Assembly (NCBI GenBank): GCA_009664345.1
Contig: CP043547.1
Location: 4,244,709 to 4,308,708, forward strand
DNA length: 64,000 nucleotides
Direction of reading: 5' to 3'
DNA from: Planctomycetales bacterium 10988
GTDB lineage: Bacteria > Planctomycetota > Planctomycetia > Pirellulales > Pb10988
The position numbers were made by a program, and so were the translations under genes. The notes under the pieces are model-generated. The model saw only the letters and a program-made list of their open reading frames with translations. It did no database searches and was not told the origin of the DNA. This document shows, one piece after another, positions 50,369 through 62,615 of the stretch. Position 1 is the first letter of the stretch. The number at the start of each line of letters is the position of its first letter.

Positions 50369-50381
50369 AAAAAGCACTTTT
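50369..50381. repeat. Dispersed palindrome overlapping the regulator stop codon
   Basis: AAAAAGCACTTTT shares its last bases with the TAA of the AraC/XylR gene, whose stop occupies 50380-50382. Confidence 0.7.
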
Positions 50382-51570
50382 AGTGAGAGGTGCGATACTC
50401 CTTGGGGGTAAGACCTACCTGTTGATGAAACGCTCGACAAAGATTCGCGGAGGTCTGAAAGCCCGCCCGTTTGGCAATCGTCAAGATCTTGTCGTCGGTT
50501 TCCAGCAACATCTTCTTGGCAACCTGAAGGCGAAAGTGGCGTAACTCTTCCATCGGGGCACGAACATAATGTTCGCGAAAGGCCTTTTCTAATCCACTTC
50601 GTGACATCGCTACATGCTGGGTGACTTGGTCCATGCGAATCGGCTCGTGGGCATGTTCATGGATAAATCGCAGGGCAGCCACAACCCCAGGGTGATCCAC
50701 GGCGAGACTATCCGTGCTCCGACGTTCGACGACTCCGGTTGGGGGGATATAGAGAGGAGAGGTCGGCGGGTCCGCACCTTGTAACATGCGATCAAGGAGC
50801 GAAGCCCCTTCGTAGCCAACTTGCTCCCACTGATTTTCAATGCTGGAGAGCGGAATTCTCAAGCAATCACAGATCGTCTCTGTATTATCAACCCCGAGAA
50901 CAGCCACTTCGTCGGGGATATGAAGGCCCGCCGCAAGACAAGCCTCGATGACCTCCACGGCCTCCACATCGCGCATGGCAAACACCGCGAGCGGTTTGGG
51001 CAGAGTTTGAAGACGCCGCATCAGCCACCGATGGCGTTGCGCTCGCGTGTCGGGCTTCCCTCGATTTTCCCGCGTCCAGGAAAGAATTTCGCATCGATAA
51101 CCGGCTTCACTGAGCGTTGCTCGATAATGATCTCGACGCCGTCGGCTGACCCCTAGATCCCAACGGTGGACGAAGGCATGATGGCGATAGCCTCGTTCGA
51201 GGAAATGCTCCGCGGCCATGCGGCCAATCGCCGCGTTATCCATCGTCACCCGAGGGAGCGAAATGTTCGGACGGCTTTCCGCCAAGTCAACGATCGGCAC
51301 TCGCAATCTTCGCAACTGCCGCCAGATATTTTGCTGCGCCCCCAAGAGCGTGATGACTCCATCGCCATTCCAATGTTTCGGGACAAGGTCGTCAAAATCA
51401 GCCGTCAGGTGCCACCCATGATCGCGGGCGAATCGGGCGACTCCTCGATGAATCTCGGGATAATACCAGCCTAACGCCAACAAGATATTGCGGGCTTCCC
51501 TCGGCTGTGCCGGTGCGGGGCGGGCTTGCTTTCGTTTTGAAGCTTGACGGAGCGGGCGAATGGGAGTCAT
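50380..51570 (-). CDS. AraC/XylR-type transcriptional regulator
   Basis: The 396-residue protein (ATG 51570; the upstream 45 codons look non-coding) joins a LacI-like sugar-binding domain ([46 protein letters not shown]) to a C-terminal AraC helix-turn-helix pair ([35 protein letters not shown]). Such regulators sense a sugar. It is divergent from the sulfatase-sialidase operon and is the natural candidate to control it, perhaps with sialic acid or a sulfated product as ligand. Confidence 0.9.
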
Positions 51571-51668
51571 GAGAGGGCCGTACTTACCAGCATTGAACGG
51601 AATTTCTGCTAAAAGCCAATCACAATCGCAAAAAGAGAGAAGTAACGAAAATGATAACTTTTTTACGC

Positions 51669-51691
51669 AACATGTCAATGTTCGGTAACCG
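51669..51691. promoter_or_regulatory. Twin inverted repeats in the divergent regulator/sulfatase region
   Basis: AACAT-GTCA-ATGTT (51669-51682) and CGGT-A-ACCG (51683-51691) lie side by side in the 167-base gap between the regulator start and the sulfatase start. They are candidate operators. If the sulfatase began at 51651 they would be coding, which speaks for the start at 51738. Confidence 0.35.
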
Positions 51692-51737
51692 AGCGTCTGA
51701 TACAATTGAAGCCGGAAATCAAAAACTTGCTCCCAGA

Positions 51738-53213
51738 ATGGATGAAATGAATCGCATGCCCCCCCGCTTAATTCGTTTCGGCTGCTGGCCTTTATATGCC
51801 TTCCTCTGCACGTTGCTCCTGGTAGGCGGCAGCCCAGCGACGAAGGCCGCCGACCAGCGACCAGACGTTCTTTTCTTTGTCGTGGATGATCTGAATGACT
51901 GGATCACTCTCCTCGACTCTTCGGCACCGATCCACACTCCAAATCTTGAGCGGCTTGCTGCGCGGGGCATGTTATTTACCAAGGCTTATTGCATTTCTCC
52001 TGCGTGCAATCCTTCGCGGGCGGCAACGCTGACCGGGTTGCGACCTTCGACGACGGGCGTGTATGGCAATAAGAGCGACTGGCGGCGTGCGATGCCGGAT
52101 CGCCCCACAATCATGCAACATTTCATGACTGCCGGATATGAAGTCCGCGGGGCCGGCAAAATCTTTCATCATCACTTGGACGGGGCTTTTCATGACGAGG
52201 CTTCCTTTCATGCGTTTCAGCCGATGCGACCGCAGCTTTATCCTCCGGAAAAGTTGAACAAGGCACCGAATTACGGCTCGCCAAATACGGATTGGGGAGA
52301 ATGGCCGCAGAAGATCGAAGACTCCATCGACTACCAAACCGCCAACTACTGCATTCAAGAACTTCAAAAAACCGAAAGAACGAAGCCATTATTTCTCGCT
52401 TGCGGTATCTTCAAACCCCATTCGCCGTTCTTCGCCCCGCCCCGCTTTCACGAAGCTTATCGCAGCATTGACCTCCCTTTGAGGCTTGATAATGACTGGA
52501 AGGATTTACCTCGGGGGGCAGCGGCTCTCCTTAAAAACAAAAAGTGGTTTTGGGAAGGAATGACACAAGTCGAACGTGAGCACCCTGGAGCGTATCATGA
52601 TTTTATTCGCTCTTATGCAGCGGCGGCCTCTTTTGCCGATGCTCAGATTGGACGAGTCCTTGATGCTTTGGACCAAAGTCCACAAAAGGACAACACGATC
52701 ATCGTGCTGTGGTCGGATCATGGGTTTCATCTGGGGGAAAAGGACCACATCGAAAAGTTCGCCCTCTGGGAAAAAAGCAATCATATCCCTTTCATCATCG
52801 TCGCCCCCGGCGTGACGACTCCGGGGAGCCGCTGCTCACAACCTGTGGATTTAACAGTTCTTTATCCAACCTTATTAGAGCTTTGTGGCCTGCCTAATGA
52901 TCCGAACTGTGATGGCAGAAGTGTCTTGCCTTTACTTCAAGATCCTTCCGCGACTTGGGAATTCCCGGCAGTGATGACTTATGCAAAAGGGAATCATGCC
53001 GTTCGCAGCCCGCGATGGCGTTACATTCGCTATTCTGATGGAACGGAAGAACTCTATGATCACCAGGCCGATCCACATGAGTGGAACAACCTTGCTGATA
53101 ACCCTGAACTGATCGCAGTCATCAATCAACATAGAAAGTGGCTGCCTAACAAAGAGGCCGACAAAATCCCTGATTTAAAGAAGCCCAAGAAATCAGGAGC
53201 GAGCAATCAATGA
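51738..53213 (+). CDS. Sulfatase, first gene of the operon
   Basis: The 491-residue sulfatase has a signal sequence (residues 10-37), CNPSR near residue 90 for formylglycine, VVDDLNDW for the calcium site and [13 protein letters not shown]. It resembles iduronate-2-sulfatases. No clear ribosome site fixes the start; 51651 and 51747 are also in frame. Its stop overlaps the next start by four bases. A palindrome-like segment encodes KKWFW near 52539. Confidence 0.88.
52539..52554. repeat. Palindrome-like segment inside sulfatase CDS
   Basis: AAAAAGTGGTTTTGGG differs in centre and right arm, and encodes Lys-Lys-Trp-Phe-Trp. It may be chance. Confidence 0.35.
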
Positions 53214-54691
53214 AAAGTACTTTTTGTATTCTTGTAAGCCTTTGCCTTCTTATAATAGGGGTCGATCCTTCCTCCGCGAGCGAAAGGACGACCGTCACTC
53301 GTCCAAATATCCTCTTTATTGCAATCGACGATCTCCGTCCGACCTTGGGATGTTATGGCGATCCTATCGCGAAAACCCCCAACATTGATCAACTGGCACA
53401 GCAAGGAATCCTTTTTCAAAGGGCCTATTGTCAGCAAGCGGTGTGCAGTCCGTCGAGGACCTCGCTGTTAACCAGCCGCCGTCCCGATACCGTTCGTGTT
53501 TGGGACTTGAAGACTCATTTCCGTAAAACGCTTCCGAACGCGGTGACCTTGCCGCAATTCTTCAAGCAGCAAGGTTACTTCGCTTGTAGCATCGGCAAGA
53601 TTTTTCATGGCAGTGGGAAACCATCACAAGACCCACCATCCTGGTCATGCGAGCCGGAGTATGATATCAGCCGAGAGGCCCACCTCCGATACGCTTTACC
53701 GGAAAACTTAAGTGGAACGGGCCTGAAACGTGCCGCGTCGGAGAAAGCGAAGGTCGCCGACGATACTTATATCGACGGGGTTGTCTGCAAGGCAGCCATC
53801 GAAAAATTGCACGCTCTGCAACAAACAACGCAGCCGTTCTTTTTAGCGGTCGGCTTTCGAAAACCGCATTTACCTTTTTGTGCTCCAGCGAAATATTGGA
53901 ACCTCTACGAACCGAACGAGATCCCGCCTCTCGTCAATGATCAGACTCCGCAAGGAGCCCCGGAAGTGGCAACGCGAAGCTGGCAAGAGCTTGAGGGATA
54001 CACGGATATCCCAGCCAATGGCGAGTTGCCCCCAGCCAAGGTGGCGGAGCTTCGGCATGGGTATTACGCCTGTGTCAGTTATGTCGATGCCCTGGTGGGT
54101 CGTCTCTTGCGTGCGTTGGATGGGTTGAAGCTTCGTGAACAGACGATCGTTGTGTTGTGGTCGGATCATGGTTTTCACCTCGGCGAGCAAGGGCTGTGGA
54201 CCAAGGCAAACAACTATGAACTTTCCACGCGAGTTCCTTTGATGGTTGCTTTCCCACAAAAATATCCCCAGGGGGTACGCACCAACGCGATCGTGGAACT
54301 GGTAGACCTTTACCCCAGTTTGGTCGAAGCTTGTGGAATCGAAGTCCCTGAAGACCTCGAAGGAAAAAGCTTTCTTCCCTTGCTTTCCAATCCACAGCGG
54401 CAATGGAAAGAGGCCGCCTTCAGCCAGTTCCCTCGCCCCTACAAAGGCAGTCGCTTCGAAGAAGATGGCGACATCATGGGATATACCGTGCGTTCGGATC
54501 GTTATCGATACGTGCAGTGGCGAGATTTGCAAACGGGCCACATGCACGCGGAAGAATTTTACGATCATCAAACCGATCCCGAAGAGATGCAGAACTTGGT
54601 AGGCCAATCGTCGAGCGTTCGCATCTTGAAAGAGCATCGCCAACGGCTCACCGAGCAAGGGAGCTTCTCTTCGCTATCACGCTTTGAATAA
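53210..54691 (+). CDS. Sulfatase, second in operon (iduronate-2-sulfatase type)
   Basis: The 493-residue exported sulfatase has CSPSR near residue 79, IDDLRPTLGCYG and [11 protein letters not shown]. The lipophilic start [17 protein letters not shown] is a signal peptide whose first residues come from a palindrome copy (53213-53226). The ATG overlaps the TGA of the previous gene. It is closest to the same type as the gene at 23455 but lacks the pVHL-like tail. Confidence 0.92.
   Translation: MKSTFCILVSLCLLIIGVDPSSASERTTVTRPNILFIAIDDLRPTLGCYGDPIAKTPNIDQLAQQGILFQRAYCQQAVCSPSRTSLLTSRRPDTVRVWDLKTHFRKTLPNAVTLPQFFKQQGYFACSIGKIFHGSGKPSQDPPSWSCEPEYDISREAHLRYALPENLSGTGLKRAASEKAKVADDTYIDGVVCKAAIEKLHALQQTTQPFFLAVGFRKPHLPFCAPAKYWNLYEPNEIPPLVNDQTPQGAPEVATRSWQELEGYTDIPANGELPPAKVAELRHGYYACVSYVDALVGRLLRALDGLKLREQTIVVLWSDHGFHLGEQGLWTKANNYELSTRVPLMVAFPQKYPQGVRTNAIVELVDLYPSLVEACGIEVPEDLEGKSFLPLLSNPQRQWKEAAFSQFPRPYKGSRFEEDGDIMGYTVRSDRYRYVQWRDLQTGHMHAEEFYDHQTDPEEMQNLVGQSSSVRILKEHRQRLTEQGSFSSLSRFE
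53213..53226. repeat. Dispersed palindrome at a start codon (AAAAGTACTTTTTG)
   Basis: The copy begins three bases into the start codon of the second sulfatase and encodes Lys-Ser-Thr-Phe of its signal peptide. Confidence 0.75.
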
Positions 54692-54743
54692 CCCACTCGA
54701 ATCAAACTTGATCCCGTACTTCATCACCTGCTAGAGAAATCTA

Positions 54744-55907
54744 ATGCCAAAAAGCACTTTTTATTTATTGACGCTTCTTTCGTTACTCTGCTTGGTTCCG
54801 TTTGTTTCCTTTGCCGAGGAAGCAGCTGGCGAAGGCTCGCTACAGCCCTTCTTAGGAAAGCCGAAATTCAAGCAGCAGCGAGTTTTCAAGGATGAACGTT
54901 TCCCCAATATCGTCGTGACGAAAGAAGGAACGCTCGTTGCCAGTTGGGGAAAAGGGCACATTCGCGTGCGTCGCAGTGAGGACGGCGGGAAGACTTGGGG
55001 GAAAGAAATTACCATCGCCGACGAGGGTTTCCATGGCGGAGGAACGACCGTCGACGAAACCACCGGAGACCTTTTGGTCTTTGTCGAAACAGAACATCCC
55101 CCGGCCCCGATCGTGATGTATCGAAGTCAGGATGATGGCAAAACTTGGCAGCCTGAAGAGATCACCATTCACCCCGACAGCAAAGAGAACATGCCTTCGA
55201 TGCACATGAACGAGCATGGAATCACCTTGCAACATGGAAAATATCCAGGGCGTTTGGTGCGAGCGACCCGTTTCTATGGCGAGGAAAATAGCCGCGAACA
55301 GTGGCCCTATCATTACACGAATGCCATGTTTAGCGACGATGGCGGCAAGACTTGGCAAACGAGCGAACCCTTTCCGGAAAATGGGACCGGCGAAGCAGCC
55401 GTCGTCGAATTGTCCGATGGACGCATCTATTACAACTCCCGCGTTCACTGGCAAGAGCGGCCCAACAATACACGACGCCGATCGGCGATGAGCGATGACG
55501 GAGGGGCAAACTGGAAAGATTGGCGGATTGTCGAGGTTCTTCCCGACGGGCATCAACACCGATCTTATGGCTGTATGGGCGGGCTGGTTCGGCTTCCGGT
55601 CGCAGGTCGGGACATTCTGATCTTCAGCAATCTCGATACCCCCAATGCCCAGCGTGAACGGGCAACCGTTTGGGCGAGCTTCGATGGCGGAGAAACTTGG
55701 CCCATCAAACGACTTGTACACAATGGCCCGAGTGCCTATTCTTCGCTGACCGCCGGTCGCCCCGGCACGCCGACGGAAGGCTGGATTTACCTTCATTTCG
55801 AACGCGAGAAGGATGGCGGCTCGAACGTCGCCCGCTTCAACCTCGCTTGGCTGCTTCAAGGCGAGCCGACCGGTGATGGGGAAGTTCCCACCGAACTGCT
55901 CCCTTAA
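54744..55907 (+). CDS. Sialidase-like exported glycosidase with five Asp boxes
   Basis: The 387-residue protein starts with a signal peptide (MPKSTFYLLTLLSLLC). RFPNIVVTKEGTLVASW sits at the place of the FRIP motif, and five Asp boxes follow: SEDGGKTW, SQDDGKTW, SDDGGKTW, SDDGGANW and SFDGGETW. This is a six-bladed propeller of the sialidase superfamily (GH33-like). The R-I-P arginine is moved, so exact sialidase activity is likely but not certain. The gene lies between two sulfatase genes and upstream of nanA-like and NanM/SSS genes, which supports sialic acid release. Confidence 0.87.
   Translation: MPKSTFYLLTLLSLLCLVPFVSFAEEAAGEGSLQPFLGKPKFKQQRVFKDERFPNIVVTKEGTLVASWGKGHIRVRRSEDGGKTWGKEITIADEGFHGGGTTVDETTGDLLVFVETEHPPAPIVMYRSQDDGKTWQPEEITIHPDSKENMPSMHMNEHGITLQHGKYPGRLVRATRFYGEENSREQWPYHYTNAMFSDDGGKTWQTSEPFPENGTGEAAVVELSDGRIYYNSRVHWQERPNNTRRRSAMSDDGGANWKDWRIVEVLPDGHQHRSYGCMGGLVRLPVAGRDILIFSNLDTPNAQRERATVWASFDGGETWPIKRLVHNGPSAYSSLTAGRPGTPTEGWIYLHFEREKDGGSNVARFNLAWLLQGEPTGDGEVPTELLP
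54749..54762. repeat. Dispersed palindrome in signal peptide (AAAAAGCACTTTTT)
   Basis: A perfect 14-base palindrome starts at codon 2-3 of the sialidase gene and encodes Lys-Ser-Thr-Phe. Confidence 0.8.
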
Positions 55908-55922
55908 ATAGAGTATCAATCA

Positions 55923-57509
55923 ATGAACCTTCGTCGCGTGAGTTCTCAATCTTTACGGGAAAAATCGATGCAGCTGCCTGCATGGCATCCATTCGTGTTC
56001 GTCTTCCTTGCCCTCTTCGCTCTGCATTTTCACGCAGAAAACATTGAGGGCGGGGAGCGGTCCGCCTTGCCCAATGATCCGCCGAATGTCCTTTTTCTGG
56101 CTGTGGATGACCTGAACGATTGGGTCGATTGCCTGCAGGGATACCCCGGCACGGTTCACACTCCGAACATCGATCGTTTGGCAAAAGAGGGGGTACTCTT
56201 TACCAATGCACATTGTGTCTCGCCGAAATGTGCCCCTTCACGGGCGGCAATCCTCACCGGCTTGCGACCTTCTTCGACGGGCCTGTATGAGAACAGTCAT
56301 TGGTGGCTGCCGAACCTTCCGCATGTGAAGACGCTGCCGACTTACTTTCGAGAGAACGGTTACCACGTTGTCGGTGCTGGCAAAATCTTTCATCACACGG
56401 CTGGAAATAATCCGCCTAATCAGTGGGATGACTACTTTCGGTTGACCTTTCGCAACGATCCTTGGTTTCGAGGGGTGAAAAAAAATTATCCCTGGTCGGA
56501 GGATGATCCCTACCCGCCAGGCTTTCCTTTCAGCGGAGTGAAGGGGCTCGGACATGAAAACGACTGGGGTTCGTTAGGTATCAAAGAGTCCGAGTACGAC
56601 GACTCTTTGACCGCGAGCTATGCCATTGATTTCCTTAAAAAACCTCAAAGCAATCCGTTCTTTCTGGCCTGTGGAATCTTTCGACCTCATCTACCGTGGT
56701 ACGTACCGCAAAATTATTTTGACCTTTATCCCCTTGAGGAAATCGAATTACCGGTGGTTCGTGAAGATGATTTGGATGACGTCCCGGCGATGGGGCAGAA
56801 GCTGGCCGGCGATCGCCACCGTGACTTGGAGCTAATTCAAAAGTCAGGCAATTGGAAATCGGCTGTCAGGGCGTATCTGGCCAGTATCTCCTACGCGGAT
56901 GCACAACTAGGCAGGGTCTTGGACACGCTGGCCGAATCCCCGCACGCATCGAACACCATCGTCGTTTTGTGGTCCGATCATGGTTGGCACTTGGGCGAAA
57001 AACAACATTGGCACAAGTCCACGCTTTGGGAAGAAGCAACGCGGATTCCGCTGGTGATCTCCGCACCAAATTATTCGACCGGCAGCTGCCCTCGCCCGGT
57101 GAGCTTGATCGATCTCTTCCCGACTCTCCTTGAACTCTGCGGGTTGCAACCGATCGCAGCACATGATGGGACGAGTCTCGTTCCTTTGTTAAAAAATCCC
57201 AAGCGATCATGGGATCGGCCTGCGGTGATTGAGTATCTCTTCAAGAATGCAGCCGTTCGCAGTGAACGATATCGCTATATTCGATACCGAGATGGAAGCG
57301 AAGAACTCTACGACCATCAATCCGATCCCCATGAATGGCAGAATCTGGCGGAGAATTCGGAATATGATTCGATCAAAACAGAGCTAGCGAAGTGGCTTCC
57401 AAAAAATTGGGACTCCGCAGCAAAACCAAAAAGTGCTTTTACTTTTGATCCTAGCTCTTTCACGTGGACAGAGAAATCCTCCGGAAGCAAAATATCAGGA
57501 AGCAAGTAA
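55923..57509 (+). CDS. Sulfatase, third in operon
   Basis: The 528-residue sulfatase has a signal-like helix (FVFVFLALFALHFHA near 24-38), CAPSR near residue 103 and WSDHGWHLGEKQHWHKSTLW. Blocks such as AVDDLNDWVD and GAGKIFHH link it with the first gene at 51738. The last 30 residues, encoded beside a palindrome copy (57428-57440), are variable. It follows the sialidase gene by 15 bases. Confidence 0.9.
   Translation: MNLRRVSSQSLREKSMQLPAWHPFVFVFLALFALHFHAENIEGGERSALPNDPPNVLFLAVDDLNDWVDCLQGYPGTVHTPNIDRLAKEGVLFTNAHCVSPKCAPSRAAILTGLRPSSTGLYENSHWWLPNLPHVKTLPTYFRENGYHVVGAGKIFHHTAGNNPPNQWDDYFRLTFRNDPWFRGVKKNYPWSEDDPYPPGFPFSGVKGLGHENDWGSLGIKESEYDDSLTASYAIDFLKKPQSNPFFLACGIFRPHLPWYVPQNYFDLYPLEEIELPVVREDDLDDVPAMGQKLAGDRHRDLELIQKSGNWKSAVRAYLASISYADAQLGRVLDTLAESPHASNTIVVLWSDHGWHLGEKQHWHKSTLWEEATRIPLVISAPNYSTGSCPRPVSLIDLFPTLLELCGLQPIAAHDGTSLVPLLKNPKRSWDRPAVIEYLFKNAAVRSERYRYIRYRDGSEELYDHQSDPHEWQNLAENSEYDSIKTELAKWLPKNWDSAAKPKSAFTFDPSSFTWTEKSSGSKISGSK
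57428..57440. repeat. Dispersed palindrome in sulfatase C-terminus (AAAAAGTGCTTTT)
   Basis: It encodes Lys-Ser-Ala-Phe in the non-conserved end of the third sulfatase. Confidence 0.7.
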
Positions 57510-57531
57510 CCTATAATCTCACGGAATCCCT

Positions 57532-58965
57532 ATGAAAACCTATCTTCTCCTGTTCAATCTATTCCTCCTCTCCCTCTTTCCTCAATCGGTCGAGGCTGAT
57601 GCATCGCCAGCGAAAACGAAGCTGAATATGGTACTTATCCTCATCGATGACCTCGGCTGGCGTGACTTGGGATGTTATGGAAGCGACTATTATCAGACCC
57701 CGAACATCGATCGGCTGGCGGAAGAAGGGATGCGATTCACCGATGGGTATGCGGCATGCAATGTCTGTTCGCCTACGCGGGCAGCCATCATGACGGGGAA
57801 ATATCCAGCCCGGCTGCTGCTCACTCAGTGGCTTCCCTCCGGTCGATGGAGTGCGACCAAGAACCGAATGCGAGAAGGTCGCTACCTCTCCAACTTACCT
57901 TTGGAAGAAGTGACGATCGCCGAAGCATTGCGAGAGGCCGGCTATCAAACGGCCTTCATGGGTAAGTGGCATCTCGGCACCGCGACCTATTATTTCCCCG
58001 AGCATCAAGGTTTTGACCTCAATATCGCCGGGCGAGATTATGGGGCACCGGGGAGCTACTTCTATCCTTTCGAAGGCAGTTGGAATATCCCGACAACCGG
58101 ACAAAAGCTGCATAAAGAGTCGCCGCTTCCGGGGAAAAAAGGGGATTATCTCATCGATCGTTTGGCAAAAGAGGCATCGAACTACATTCGCACCCATGCC
58201 GAGAAGCCGTTCTTTTTGATGCTCTCCCACTACGCCGTGCATGCTCCACTGCAAGGAAAGCCGGAGATGGTCGACCGCTATGAAAAGGTCAAAAAGAGAA
58301 AGCAGCAAGGCAAGCCCGACTATGCAGCGATGGTCGAAAGCGTCGACGAGAGCGTGGGCCGCGTCATGCAAACGCTCCGCGAAATGAATCTCGAAGACCA
58401 AACAATGGTCATCTTTACCAGTGATAACGGAGGTTTTGCCAAGGCGACAAGCAATACACCGCTACGGGCAAATAAAGGTTCGAACTACGAAGGGGGCTTG
58501 CGTGTGCCGGTGATCATTAAATGGCCAGGGCAAACTTCACCGGGGACCGTTTCACACGAACCCGTGATTAGCACGGATTTTTATCCCACGATTTTGGAAG
58601 CCGTCGGGCAGGAACTTCGACCTTTTCAGCACACAGATGGTGAGAGCCTTGTCCCGATTTTAACCGGCGAAGGGACGTTTCAGCGGGACGCCCTCTTCTG
58701 GCATTATCCCCATTACAATCAACACCCCGAAAGTTTTCCCTCCGGCGTAATTCGTCAAGGGGATTGGAAATTGATCGAGGATTATGAGACGAATCAAGTG
58801 TCGCTCTATCATTTAAAGGAAGACCTCGGGGAGAAAAACAACCTCGCTGAGGAAAAACCGGAGAAGACAGCAGAGCTTTTCAAGAAGCTCCAAGCATGGC
58901 GAAGCGAAGTCGGTGCCGAGCCGATGCGTCTGAATCCACAATATATGGACAAGAAAACCAAGTAG
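57532..58965 (+). CDS. Sulfatase, fourth in operon (arylsulfatase type)
   Basis: The 477-residue sulfatase has a signal peptide (residues 1-22), CSPTR near residue 79, IDDLGWRDLGCYGSDYY, GKWHLG and TSDNGGFAKAT. These place it with arylsulfatase-A-type enzymes, a different subfamily from the other three. Different specificities along one glycan are therefore likely. It is 22 bases after the third sulfatase. Confidence 0.93.
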   Translation: MKTYLLLFNLFLLSLFPQSVEADASPAKTKLNMVLILIDDLGWRDLGCYGSDYYQTPNIDRLAEEGMRFTDGYAACNVCSPTRAAIMTGKYPARLLLTQWLPSGRWSATKNRMREGRYLSNLPLEEVTIAEALREAGYQTAFMGKWHLGTATYYFPEHQGFDLNIAGRDYGAPGSYFYPFEGSWNIPTTGQKLHKESPLPGKKGDYLIDRLAKEASNYIRTHAEKPFFLMLSHYAVHAPLQGKPEMVDRYEKVKKRKQQGKPDYAAMVESVDESVGRVMQTLREMNLEDQTMVIFTSDNGGFAKATSNTPLRANKGSNYEGGLRVPVIIKWPGQTSPGTVSHEPVISTDFYPTILEAVGQELRPFQHTDGESLVPILTGEGTFQRDALFWHYPHYNQHPESFPSGVIRQGDWKLIEDYETNQVSLYHLKEDLGEKNNLAEEKPEKTAELFKKLQAWRSEVGAEPMRLNPQYMDKKTK

Positions 58966-58999: not shown

Positions 59000-59014
59000 A
59001 AAAAGTACTTTTAG
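59000..59014. repeat. Dispersed palindrome copy (AAAAAGTACTTTTAG)
   Basis: The copy ends 11 bases before the ATG of the aldolase gene and fills its ribosome-site region. Confidence 0.75.
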
Positions 59015-59025
59015 TGTTGAAGACC

Positions 59026-59964
59026 ATGAAGCAACTTTCACTCGATGGACTCATTGCAGCGACCTTTACCCCGTTTCATAAAGATGGCTCACTTCATCTC
59101 GAAGCCATTCCCTCCTTGGTAGAACATTTAATCTCCGAGGGAGTAAGCGGCCTTTACGTCCTGGGAAGTACCGGCGAAGGCTTGTCCTTGACCCAGGACG
59201 AACGCTTCCAAGTCGCGGAAGCCTATGTGAAGGCAGCGGCCAAGCGAATCCCCGTCCTGATTCATGTCGGTTCCGAGTGCCTTTCACAAGCACGCTCGCT
59301 CGCCATTCATGCCGCCATCATCGAAGCGGACGGGATTTCCGCAGTTTCGCCAGTGTATTTCAAGCCCAATTCGCTGACAACGTTGGTGCGATCCATGGCC
59401 GAAATCGCCGCTGGAGCTCCAAAACTTCCTTTTTATTATTATCATATTCCTGCAATTACCGGGGTCTCGGTGAACTTGATCGAGTTTCTGCAACGCGGGG
59501 CGGAGCAAATCCCGACCCTCCAGGGAATCAAGTTTACCTCGCCGAACGTGCATGAATTCCAAAGTTGTTTAGAGTTTGCCGGCGATCGCTATGACATTTT
59601 GTGGGGTCTCGATGAGATGCTGCTGAGCGGTTTAACCGCTGGGGCCAAGGCCGCTGTCGGAAGCACTTATAACTATGCGGCCCCGATTTATCAGCGGCTC
59701 CTCGCCGCCTTCGAAAAGGGTGACCTCGCCGCCGCTCGACATTTTCAATCGCAATCGCAGGCAGTGGTTCGCACTTTCGTTCCCTTTGGGCCGCGTGCCG
59801 CACAAAAAGCAATCATGGCGATGATCGATCAAGATTGCGGCCCCTCCCGTTTGCCGATCGCTTCACTCACCGCAAGCCAATCCCTGGCCTTACGCAAAGA
59901 ACTGGAAGTCATCGGCTTTTTTGATTGGGTTCAAGAGCGATCCAGACGGGTTACAAATCTTTGA
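59026..59964 (+). CDS. nanA: N-acetylneuraminate lyase-like aldolase (DapA family)
   Basis: The 312-residue enzyme of the DHDPS/NAL family has GSTGEG at 47-52, the catalytic Tyr in FYYYHIP near 137-140 and the Schiff-base Lys in GIKFTS near 165. The spacing and the Y-Y-H-I-P variant fit N-acetylneuraminate lyase better than DapA, and the context of a sialidase and a NanM domain agrees. It splits sialic acid to ManNAc and pyruvate. The ATG at 59026 is chosen; the GTG at 59014 overlaps a palindrome. No nanE or nanK is near. Confidence 0.85.
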
Positions 59965-59990
59965 GGCTCGGTAAAGGAAGCGAACGATCT

Positions 59991-62615
59991 ATGCAAACTC
60001 GTGTGATACCCTCCCTCTTCGTGTCTATCTTCTTCGCCAGTTGCCTTTCCAATGGAGCAACGAACTGCTTCGGTCAAAGTGATGCTGGGGAGAAGACTCG
60101 GATGCAGAGCGTTCTGGATTGGGAACAACTGCCAGCCTTGCCAAATGAGTTGGGCGTCGCTGGCCCGTTTGTGGGAGTTCATCATGGAGCCCTACTCGTG
60201 GCCGGCGGAGCAAACTTCCAAAAGCCGGTTTGGGAGAGTGACAAAGAATGGCACAAGGAGATTTATGTCCTCAACAAGACGGAAACGGGCTACAAGTGGC
60301 AATCGGGAGGCCAATTGCCACGGCCGATCGCCTACGGTGCGGCGGTTTCTACGCCGGAGGGAATTATCTGCTTGGGAGGAAATGACAGTGAGCAAACCTT
60401 TCAGGAAGCCTTCCTATTGCAATGGAATCCTATCAACAGCCGCGTTGAGGTCTCTGATTTTCCGGCACTTCCCCAGCCTTGTGCTTATGGGCAAGCGGTG
60501 CTCGTTGGAACGAGGATTTATCTAGCAGGAGGGCAATCCGGCAGTAATCTTCAGTCGGCCATGAAAAATTTTTGGACCATCGACCTCTCCCAAAGTGAAG
60601 ACCCGGCAAGGTTCGTCTGGCGAGAACTCCCACCTTGGCCGGGTCCCGCGAGGGCGTTTAATATTACCGCCCAACAACATAACGGTTATGAAGACTGTAT
60701 CTACGTGATCAGTGGTCGGCATGAAGATGATTCCGAAATCCGCTTTTTGAAAGACGTTTGGGAATTTAATCCAAAAACTAATTTTTGGAAGAAGCGAGCA
60801 GATGCCCCCCGTTGTGTCATGGCGGGAACAGGGATTGGCCTTGGACAAAGCCACCTCTTTATTTTCGGCGGAGCGGACGGCTCGCTGTTTGCCAAAGCTG
60901 ACGATCTGAAGGATGAGCATCCCGGCTTTCCCAAGGAGGCATTGGCCTTCCACACGATCACGAACACCTGGACGACTGCTGGCACCATGCCCATCAACCA
61001 AGTGACAACGATTCCGGTGAAGTGGGAGGACAAGGTCATTTTAGCGAGTGGCGAGATTCGGCCTCGCGTACGGACCCCGCAAGTCTGGAGCGTGGAGCCC
61101 GTTGCCGAGCAGCATGGCTTCGGCCTGATCAATTACGGCGTCTTGTTTGGATATCTGCTCGCCATGTTGGGTATTGGCTTTTATTTCGCTTTGAAGAACA
61201 AAACCACTGACGACTATTTTCGCGGCGGGAAACATCTCCCCTGGTGGGCGGCGGGGTGTAGTATTTTCGCCACGATGCTTAGCTCGTTGACCTTTACGGG
61301 GATTCCGTCCAAAGCATTCGCTCAAGACTGGGTCTATGCCGTGGGGAATTTTATGATTCCGGTTGTCGCCTTCATCGGGGTTTATGTAGCGTTGCCTTTT
61401 TATCGACGGATCGATGCGACGAGTGCCTATGAATATCTCGAACATCGTTTTAGTCGAGGGGTACGGCTTTTCGGCAGCGCAAGCTTTACCCTCTTTCACC
61501 TCTTTCGAATGGCCGTGGTGATGTCACTCACCGGCTTGGCGCTGGCCGTGGCAACGCCGCTGACTCCGGTACATTCTGTCTTATTAATCGGTGTGCTCAG
61601 TATTATCTATTGCACCATTGGTGGGATCGAAGCGGTGATCTGGACGGATACCATTCAAACCGTGGTCCTGCTCGGCGGGGCAACGCTGGCGTTGACTCTT
61701 TTGATCCTAGGAACCGAAGAAGGTTGGCTCGGCACCGTGCAGGCCGCGACCACCGCGGAGAAATTTCGGCTGGCGAATTTTCACCTAGACCCCACCAGCA
61801 TGCAGTTGGCGTTGTGGGTGGTCGTTCTCGGAGCGATCGGCCAGAACATTTCTTCCTACACTGCCGATCAAGCCGTCGTGCAACGGTACATGACCACCCC
61901 CGATCAACGCCTGGCCGCTTGTTCCATCTGGACAAATGCCATTCTCACGATTCCGGCCACGCTGCTCTTCTTCGGGATAGGAACGGCACTCTTTACTTTT
62001 TATCGATCACATCCAGAGCGACTTGATCCCACTATCACGACGGACCAAATCTTCCCCCTCTTTATTGCGAATGAAATGCCGATCGGAATCGCCGGGCTGA
62101 TCGTGGCGGGGGTCTTTTCGGCAGCCCAATCAACGGTCTCAACAAGTATGAACTCGACGGCAACGACGATCGTGACCGACTTTCTCCGGCCATTTGAAAT
62201 GGCGAAAAGCGAACGGTGGTATCTGCGAGCGGCTCAAGGAATCACGTTCGCGATGGGCGTCCTCGGCACGCTCCTTGGCTTGATCTTCGTCGATCCAGCC
62301 ATCAAATCGCTTTTTGATACCTTTATTAAAGTCATCGGTCTCTTCATGGGGGTTCTCGGCGGGCTATTCGTTTTGGGAGTCATGACCCAGCGGGCGAATG
62401 CCTTCGGGGCGATGATCGGGGCACTCGTCGGAGCCGCGTCGATGTTCGTACTTTGGAAATTTACAGCTATCAACGGTTATTTGTATACGGCGTGCGGAAT
62501 CACGACCTGCTTTCTGGCGGGGTACTTCGCAAGTTTTCTCGCCCCGCAGACTCAACAAAACCTGGACGGCCTGACCCTCTATACCCTTTCGAATGCGGCA
62601 AAATCAAACGACTAG
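59991..62615 (+). CDS. NanM-like kelch domain fused to SSS sialic acid symporter
   Basis: The 874-residue protein starts with a signal sequence. Residues about 35-370 form a kelch propeller ([34 protein letters not shown]) like the sialic acid mutarotase/epimerase NanM. From about 375 comes a sodium:solute symporter with some 13 helices ([33 protein letters not shown]). The propeller would face outside and could convert the released sugar to the anomer carried. It starts 26 bases after the aldolase gene. Fusion of the two functions is unusual. Confidence 0.9.

Follow-up and report, generated by a model that had tools for sequence, protein, structure and literature searches.

Why would a sodium symporter carry a kelch propeller at its N-terminus, and what would such a chain import? 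The window analysed here, the whole stretch of 64,000 nucleotides from Planctomycetales bacterium 10988, contains a gene that raises this question (59991-62615, + strand). According to an initial annotation, a NanM-type propeller and a sodium symporter are joined in this gene, so that the enzyme that conditions sialic acid and the carrier that imports it would be one chain.

To explain the fused gene, we propose that it very probably encodes a bifunctional mutarotase-importer for sialic acids. In this proposal, which is built on sequence comparison, the signal would place the propeller on the periplasmic side of the membrane. The alpha anomer of the sugar would be released by retaining sialidases, and the propeller would accelerate the conversion from alpha to beta by means of a NanM-like Glu/Arg pair. 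The beta anomer would then be imported together with sodium by the SiaT-like symporter that follows the propeller in the chain. In the cytoplasm, the product of the neighbouring lyase gene would split the imported sugar into pyruvate and a hexose or hexosamine. The fusion would then link sialic acid uptake, in several phyla, with the circularly permuted mutarotases. It would also make it possible to ask, in a natural system, whether the import of sialic acid is limited by mutarotation.

Fusion of two domains in one frame

Read from stop to stop, the open frame covers 59925-62615 on the + strand and has 896 amino acids, counted from a TTG. An ATG at 59991 gives a chain of 874 amino acids (59991-62615). 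We consider this ATG the better start because AAAGGAAG ends ten bases 5' of it and because it follows the stop codon of the upstream lyase homologue (59962-59964) after a gap of 26 nt.

The chain begins with a predicted hydrophobic signal (residues 1-28, 59991-60074). We assigned the signal from the translation, from a helix at residues 5-20 of the AlphaFold2 model and by inspecting the N-termini of relatives by eye. Residues 19-37 lie below pLDDT 50 in the model. Behind the signal follow a kelch propeller (residues 40-370, 60108-61100) and a sodium symporter of the SSS type (residues 376-860, 61116-62570). In a Pfam search with the 896-residue frame, the NANM profile PF24996 matches the N-terminal half in three stretches, together with kelch motifs (124.6 bits, cut-off 45), and the SSF profile PF00474 matches residues 431-836 (137.1 bits, cut-off 22.8). 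In NCBIfam, the sss profile TIGR00813 reaches 192.8 bits (cut-off 184). With scores above the gathering and curated cut-offs, the chain combines a propeller of the NANM family with a carrier of the SSS family (TC 2.A.21).

The same pairing recurs in other genomes. Both domains lie in one frame in at least 14 of the 77 genomes of the order, our own included (G000, G005, G014, G021, G023, G027, G031, G038, G039, G055, G061, G062, G070 and G073). For G027 one TGA was noted inside the match, and the frame that was read spans query residues 64-888 without a stop. In G025 the fusion is cut by the contig end. Beyond the order, we scanned named species with two patterns of the carrier half. At least 587 relatives were confirmed, and we analysed the 80 with the best match to the fused query (the best 80), again with open frames read from stop to stop. 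A single frame spans query residues ≤90 to ≥830 in 72 of the best 80 loci, a proportion that should not be read as how often SiaT relatives in general are fused, since the patterns came from the carrier half and the best 80 of at least 587 were ranked by a fused query. Of the remaining loci, seven run into a contig end, and in L070 the frame begins inside the propeller. A chance read-through or frame artefact is ruled out by the recurrence of the pairing within and beyond the order.

The titles of the best 80 name Planctomycetota, Verrucomicrobiota, Bacteroidota, Acidobacteriota, KSB1 and others, although the contig names of draft genomes, and hence these phylum labels, may be wrong through contamination. 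Rhodopirellula baltica (L049), which has the lyase in addition to the fusion, is among the titles, as are the Bacteroidota Phocaeicola plebeius, Parabacteroides, Capnocytophaga canis and Arenibacter. A Pseudoalteromonas plasmid carries the fusion as well; of the 41 plasmid records that match, it alone has a location covering 80% of the query. There the gene is annotated only as 'sodium/solute symporter', a label that can conceal an enzyme. Our literature search found no description of a mutarotase-SSS fusion in the titles, abstracts or passages it returned. Such fusions may, however, be mentioned in the NanM paper of Severi from 2008 or in a later review by the same group.

The propeller and its NanM-like motif

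As the query for the PDB search we used a propeller fragment of 337 amino acids (60099-61109). Its best match is E. coli NanM (2uvk, E 9e-13). The alignment falls into two pieces in swapped order, with residues 159-332 of the fragment on NanM residues 34-222 and residues 6-96 on NanM residues 229-326. Thus the blade order is circularly permuted. The fusion and the NanM type of the propeller, as initially annotated, both hold; NanM's own blade order does not.

How close is the propeller to the known families? NanM proper (YjhT, TIGR03547/PRK14131) was rejected as an assignment, given the permuted segments and scores of 122.8 vs 256.35 and 130.3 vs 416 bits. The profile for cyclically-permuted mutarotases (TIGR03548) matches residues 76-387 of the 896-residue frame over model positions 2-322 of 323, with 151 bits against a cut-off of 243. 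Despite this near-full coverage we therefore treat the propeller as a relative and do not file it as a member of TIGR03548. Two other fused chains that we scanned also fall below the cut-off. A further difference from TIGR03548 is the position of the propeller at the N-terminus of a carrier. Kelch folds are among the structures that match the AlphaFold2 model in a fold search. NanM 2uvk is not among the 50 matches listed per search, which is no evidence either way because a permuted order can hide it.

The putative active site is a GEIRPRVR motif (residues 354-361, 61050-61073). In the piece that ends at NanM residue 222, GEAKPGLRT of NanM is aligned to GEIRPRVRT of the fused chain. Counting back from residue 222, the Glu and Arg of the motif are equivalent to Glu209 and Arg215, which we take to be the catalytic residues of NanM; our literature search found no paper that names these two residues together with NanM. 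In an alignment of relatives, all 15 rows that reach the motif have GExxPxxR. It is also present in 76 of the best 80 chains and absent from L058 and L059 (both KSB1), L117 and L074. The L074 chain is cut before the motif position, whereas L058, L059 and L117 reach the site. The loss of NanM's active-site residues had been named in advance as a result that would speak against the annotation. Instead, the Glu/Arg pair of sialic acid mutarotases is kept, as aligned to 2uvk.

Alternatively, the propeller could be a non-enzymatic docking or capture domain in the periplasm that keeps a partner, or the sugar itself, close to the carrier. The sub-threshold TIGR03548 score and the three chains that reach the site without the motif would fit such a domain. 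However, a scaffold would not need a Glu/Arg motif that is this widely conserved, and the same class of propeller also occurs free and fused to a sialidase-like domain (see below). We consider a docking role improbable and keep to the mutarotase reading.

Like the fused propeller, NanM is a kelch propeller with the Glu/Arg motif. The available passages on NanM place it in the periplasm and describe a separate, soluble homodimer of six-bladed propellers (PMC10017367). Relative to NanM, the propeller of the fused chain is permuted. By analogy with NanM, the fused propeller is probably periplasmic too.

The carrier and its connection to the propeller

Among solved structures, the best relative of the carrier half is SiaT, a sialic acid symporter from Proteus mirabilis (5nv9, 349 bits); the next is a multivitamin transporter (173 bits). 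An AlphaFold2 model of the whole chain, built with 56 sequences, has a mean pLDDT of 92.5 and a pTM of 0.90. In the fold search it matches SiaT 5nva with a Z-score of 50.6 and an rmsd of 1.7 over 469 residues, and the TM-score by SiaT's length is 0.96. SiaT itself has no propeller.

Much of the SiaT binding site recurs in the fused chain. Ser60, Thr63, Arg135, Asp182, Asn247, Arg260, Ser342 and Ser345 of SiaT are identical, and seven sites are changed (Thr58 to Met, Phe78 to Tyr, Gln82 to Asn, Phe243 to Ala, Gln250 to Ser, Ser343 to Thr and Ser346 to Thr). Passages of the SiaT study report that Arg135 binds the carboxylate of sialic acid and that S60A, T63A, Q82D and R135E each abolish transport (PMC5931594). 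The Arg135 equivalent of the fused chain is residue 506 (codon 61506-61508). Among the best 80 relatives, Arg135 and Ser60 are kept in all 80 chains and Thr63 in 79, while Asp182 is kept in 78 of the 79 chains that have a residue there. Hence the fused carrier has the carboxylate residues of the SiaT type. The side chains of the Na2 and Na3 sites are also preserved: Ser342, Ser345 and Asp182 are unchanged, and the hydroxyls at Ser343 and Ser346 are retained because both residues are Thr in the fused chain. These are candidate sodium sites.

The anomer is a different matter. According to the passages found, the crystal of SiaT contains the beta anomer (PMC5931594). In SiaT, Thr58 binds the anomeric hydroxyl and Gln82 the glycerol tail, while Phe78, Gln82 and Phe243 face the acyl and glycerol parts of the sugar. 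The Thr58 site is Met in our chain and Met or Gln in 62 of the best 80. Because the residue that binds the anomeric hydroxyl is replaced, the anomer preference of SiaT cannot be transferred to the fused carrier. The Gln82 site is Asn in 51 of the best 80 and Gln in 12.

In a tree of carrier halves (61 rows), the 44-row clade of fused chains also includes SiaT (support 97/92), which groups with two fused chains from Verrucomicrobiota (support 100/98). No other SiaT is part of the tree, and the branch leading to it is long (1.22). The fused clade further contains L024 and L025, two planctomycete carriers that are unfused. Since SiaT is nested among fused chains, SiaT-type carriers may descend from the fusion by loss of the propeller.

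Could the carrier instead import an unrelated solute, another organic acid for example, with a merely decorative kelch domain? SSS carriers are diverse, and our genome encodes several of them. However, the conserved carboxylate site, the position of SiaT in the tree and the gene context described below all point to sialic acid, where transport of an unrelated solute had been named beforehand as a way for the annotation to fail. We regard an unrelated solute as highly improbable and continue with a sialic acid importer.

Where does the propeller sit relative to the carrier? A plain hydropathy count gave no usable topology, and the topology thus rests on SiaT and on the model. The N-terminus of SiaT is periplasmic according to the passages found (PMC5931594), which is consistent with the predicted signal. 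By this analogy the propeller would lie outside, where the initial annotation had put it.

In the model, the final propeller strand runs to residue 370, and helix 0 starts at residue 379. The distance from the motif Arg to a conserved Tyr of helix 0 is nearly constant: it is 25 residues in 11 chains, 26 in 62, 27 in two and 28 in one (n = 76). Together with a pTM of 0.90 for a two-domain chain, which we read as predicting a fixed arrangement of the halves, this geometry makes a hand-over from propeller to carrier at the membrane plausible. It is also quite possible that the fusion serves co-expression and stoichiometry only, without any hand-over. A mutarotated sugar could presumably diffuse in the periplasm, and in one locus (L136) a propeller of this kind is encoded by a gene of its own, next to that of an MFS carrier. 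Yet 73 of the 76 chains have a spacing of 25-26 residues, and the whole chain is modelled with confidence; both suggest a fixed arrangement, from which a gain by physical coupling might arise. We go one step further only tentatively, and with more doubt than conviction: the mutarotase may stand rigidly over the mouth of the carrier, flip the sugar in place and deliver it, and the SiaT-type carriers may be what is left after loss of the propeller. If the arrangement is indeed rigid, the fusion would be unusual as a secondary carrier on which an enzyme is mounted.

Gene context and the sugar

The fused gene is preceded by a tightly spaced run of genes on the same strand. The run consists of two sulfatases (51651-53213 and 53210-54691), a BNR/GH33 sialidase-like gene (54744-55907; PF13088), two more sulfatases (55923-57509 and 57532-58965; all four PF00884) and a homologue of N-acetylneuraminate lyase from the DHDPS superfamily (59014-59964). 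A divergent gene on the - strand (50380-51705), with a LacI-like sensor (PF13377) and an AraC-type domain (PF12833), is a candidate regulator of the run. Four sulfatases around a sialidase-like gene on one strand suggest that the run 51651-58965 degrades sulfated, sialylated glycans.

The top three solved relatives of the lyase homologue (6h4e, 5afd and 6arh, the last of which we take to be a human chain) are N-acetylneuraminate lyases or putative ones. Its GSTGE, YYHIP, KFT, GLDE and GSTYN stretches, presumably typical of lyases, align with the solved lyase chains. It lies below the curated nanA cut-offs, with 135.7 bits for TIGR00683 vs 131.2 bits for the dapA profile TIGR00674. The best solved relative of the sialidase-like gene is 1eur (E 5e-25), which we take to be a sialidase from Micromonospora. 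Certain Arg, Glu and Tyr positions of 1eur, presumably catalytic, are conserved, and one loop, which we believe bears the catalytic Asp, is gapped. Hence the activity of the sialidase-like gene is uncertain; its product may be inactive or use another acid. NanA homologues have been reported in Planctomycetes, according to the passages found (PMC2693436).

Similar genes surround the fusion elsewhere. Direct searches of the best 80 fused loci found a lyase in the flanks of 40 (E<1e-20), a BNR gene at 29 (E<1e-5) and an AGE epimerase at 20. The flanks of the other 40 contain no lyase match at E<1e-20, and some of these contigs are short. In 34 of the best 80 the lyase is a same-strand neighbour of the fusion at a distance of up to 350 nt (25 upstream, 9 downstream). 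A lyase, an AGE epimerase or a sialidase-like gene flanks 56 of the best 80 fused loci vs 4 of 20 unfused SSS controls (NAL 3, AGE 1, BNR 1); the controls were drawn from relatives in one order rather than from the phyla represented by the 80, and two control loci are shorter than the others. One control, L162, is an unfused SSS carrier that adjoins a lyase-family gene. Our own genome has a second, unfused SSS carrier (L135:7367-9879, G000:C1:4857366-4859878), and a DHDPS/lyase-family gene comes directly after it, while a sulfatase lies farther upstream; this locus is shown beside the controls and not counted. Thus a lyase neighbour is not unique to the fusion.

Clustering the neighbours of the best 80 yields DHDPS (36), BNR_2 (25), AGE (19), sulfatases (16), GntR regulators (13), GFO/IDH/MocA (11), SusD (10), TonB-dependent receptors (10) and GDSL/SASA esterase (6). 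Clusters were named from one representative each, with Pfam run on the first 10 of at least 24 clusters. The first three counts differ from the direct searches (40, 29 and 20) because the methods differ. On the Pseudoalteromonas plasmid a gene of the sialidase family neighbours the fusion, and nagA and a gene of the DHDPS family lie farther along.

The permuted propeller is also found apart from the symporter. In three loci a BNR_2 sialidase-like domain precedes it in one frame (L132:4126-6558 in G076, L133:3931-6444 in G011 and L134:2595-5117 in G050). In G045 (L136) a free propeller belongs to a run of a sialidase-like gene, an AGE epimerase, the propeller, an MFS carrier and a lyase. In Parabacteroides merdae, passages report that Neu5Ac raises the expression of a cyclically-permuted mutarotase gene by 2.1 log2, along with that of sialidase, AGE epimerase and MFS genes (PMC12893687). 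Sialic acid is therefore the common theme of these propellers.

Which sialic acid, then? A profile search of our genome (one contig, 95.6% complete) found neither an AGE epimerase (PF07221) nor NanE (PF04131); ROK-family genes are present. Among 15 related genomes, PF07221 scores above its cut-off in eight and not in seven, and PF04131 in none. With no recognisable ManNAc epimerase in our own genome, the exact sugar may be Neu5Ac, Neu5Gc, KDN or another; our interpretation of the fusion is the same in each case. Possibly an unrecognised enzyme performs the ManNAc step, or the substrate is a sugar such as KDN. The lysis of KDN yields pyruvate and mannose, so no ManNAc epimerase would be needed.

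The same machine could thus serve another sugar, a non-acetylated or sulfated nonulosonate such as KDN. Besides the epimerase pattern, the four sulfatases of the run fit this idea, and so do Tyr, Asn and Ala at the acyl- and glycerol-facing sites Phe78, Gln82 and Phe243 of SiaT. However, an AGE epimerase lies within 160 nt 3' of the fusion in five relatives (G005, there after its second copy, G014, G027, G039 and G070), and a non-homologous epimerase could have escaped detection. The same Tyr and Asn also occur in SaSiaT of Staphylococcus aureus, which differs from our chain at the Phe243 site (Asn instead of Ala) and which the passages found describe, with no mention of a propeller, as a functional sialic acid symporter for Neu5Ac and Neu5Gc that binds Neu5Gc better than Neu5Ac (PMC6039549). 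A KDN-type substrate therefore seems rather unlikely to us, and a mutarotase-importer for sialic acids in general remains our preferred reading.

Two further arrangements of the propeller were observed. In Arenibacter sp. 6A1 a free TIGR03548-like gene (L092:10670-11809; 211 bits, cut-off 243) lies right after the fused chain. In G021 one open frame (L019:1486-5328) joins three domains: a 3-keto-disaccharide hydrolase (PF06439), a NANM propeller and an SSF carrier.
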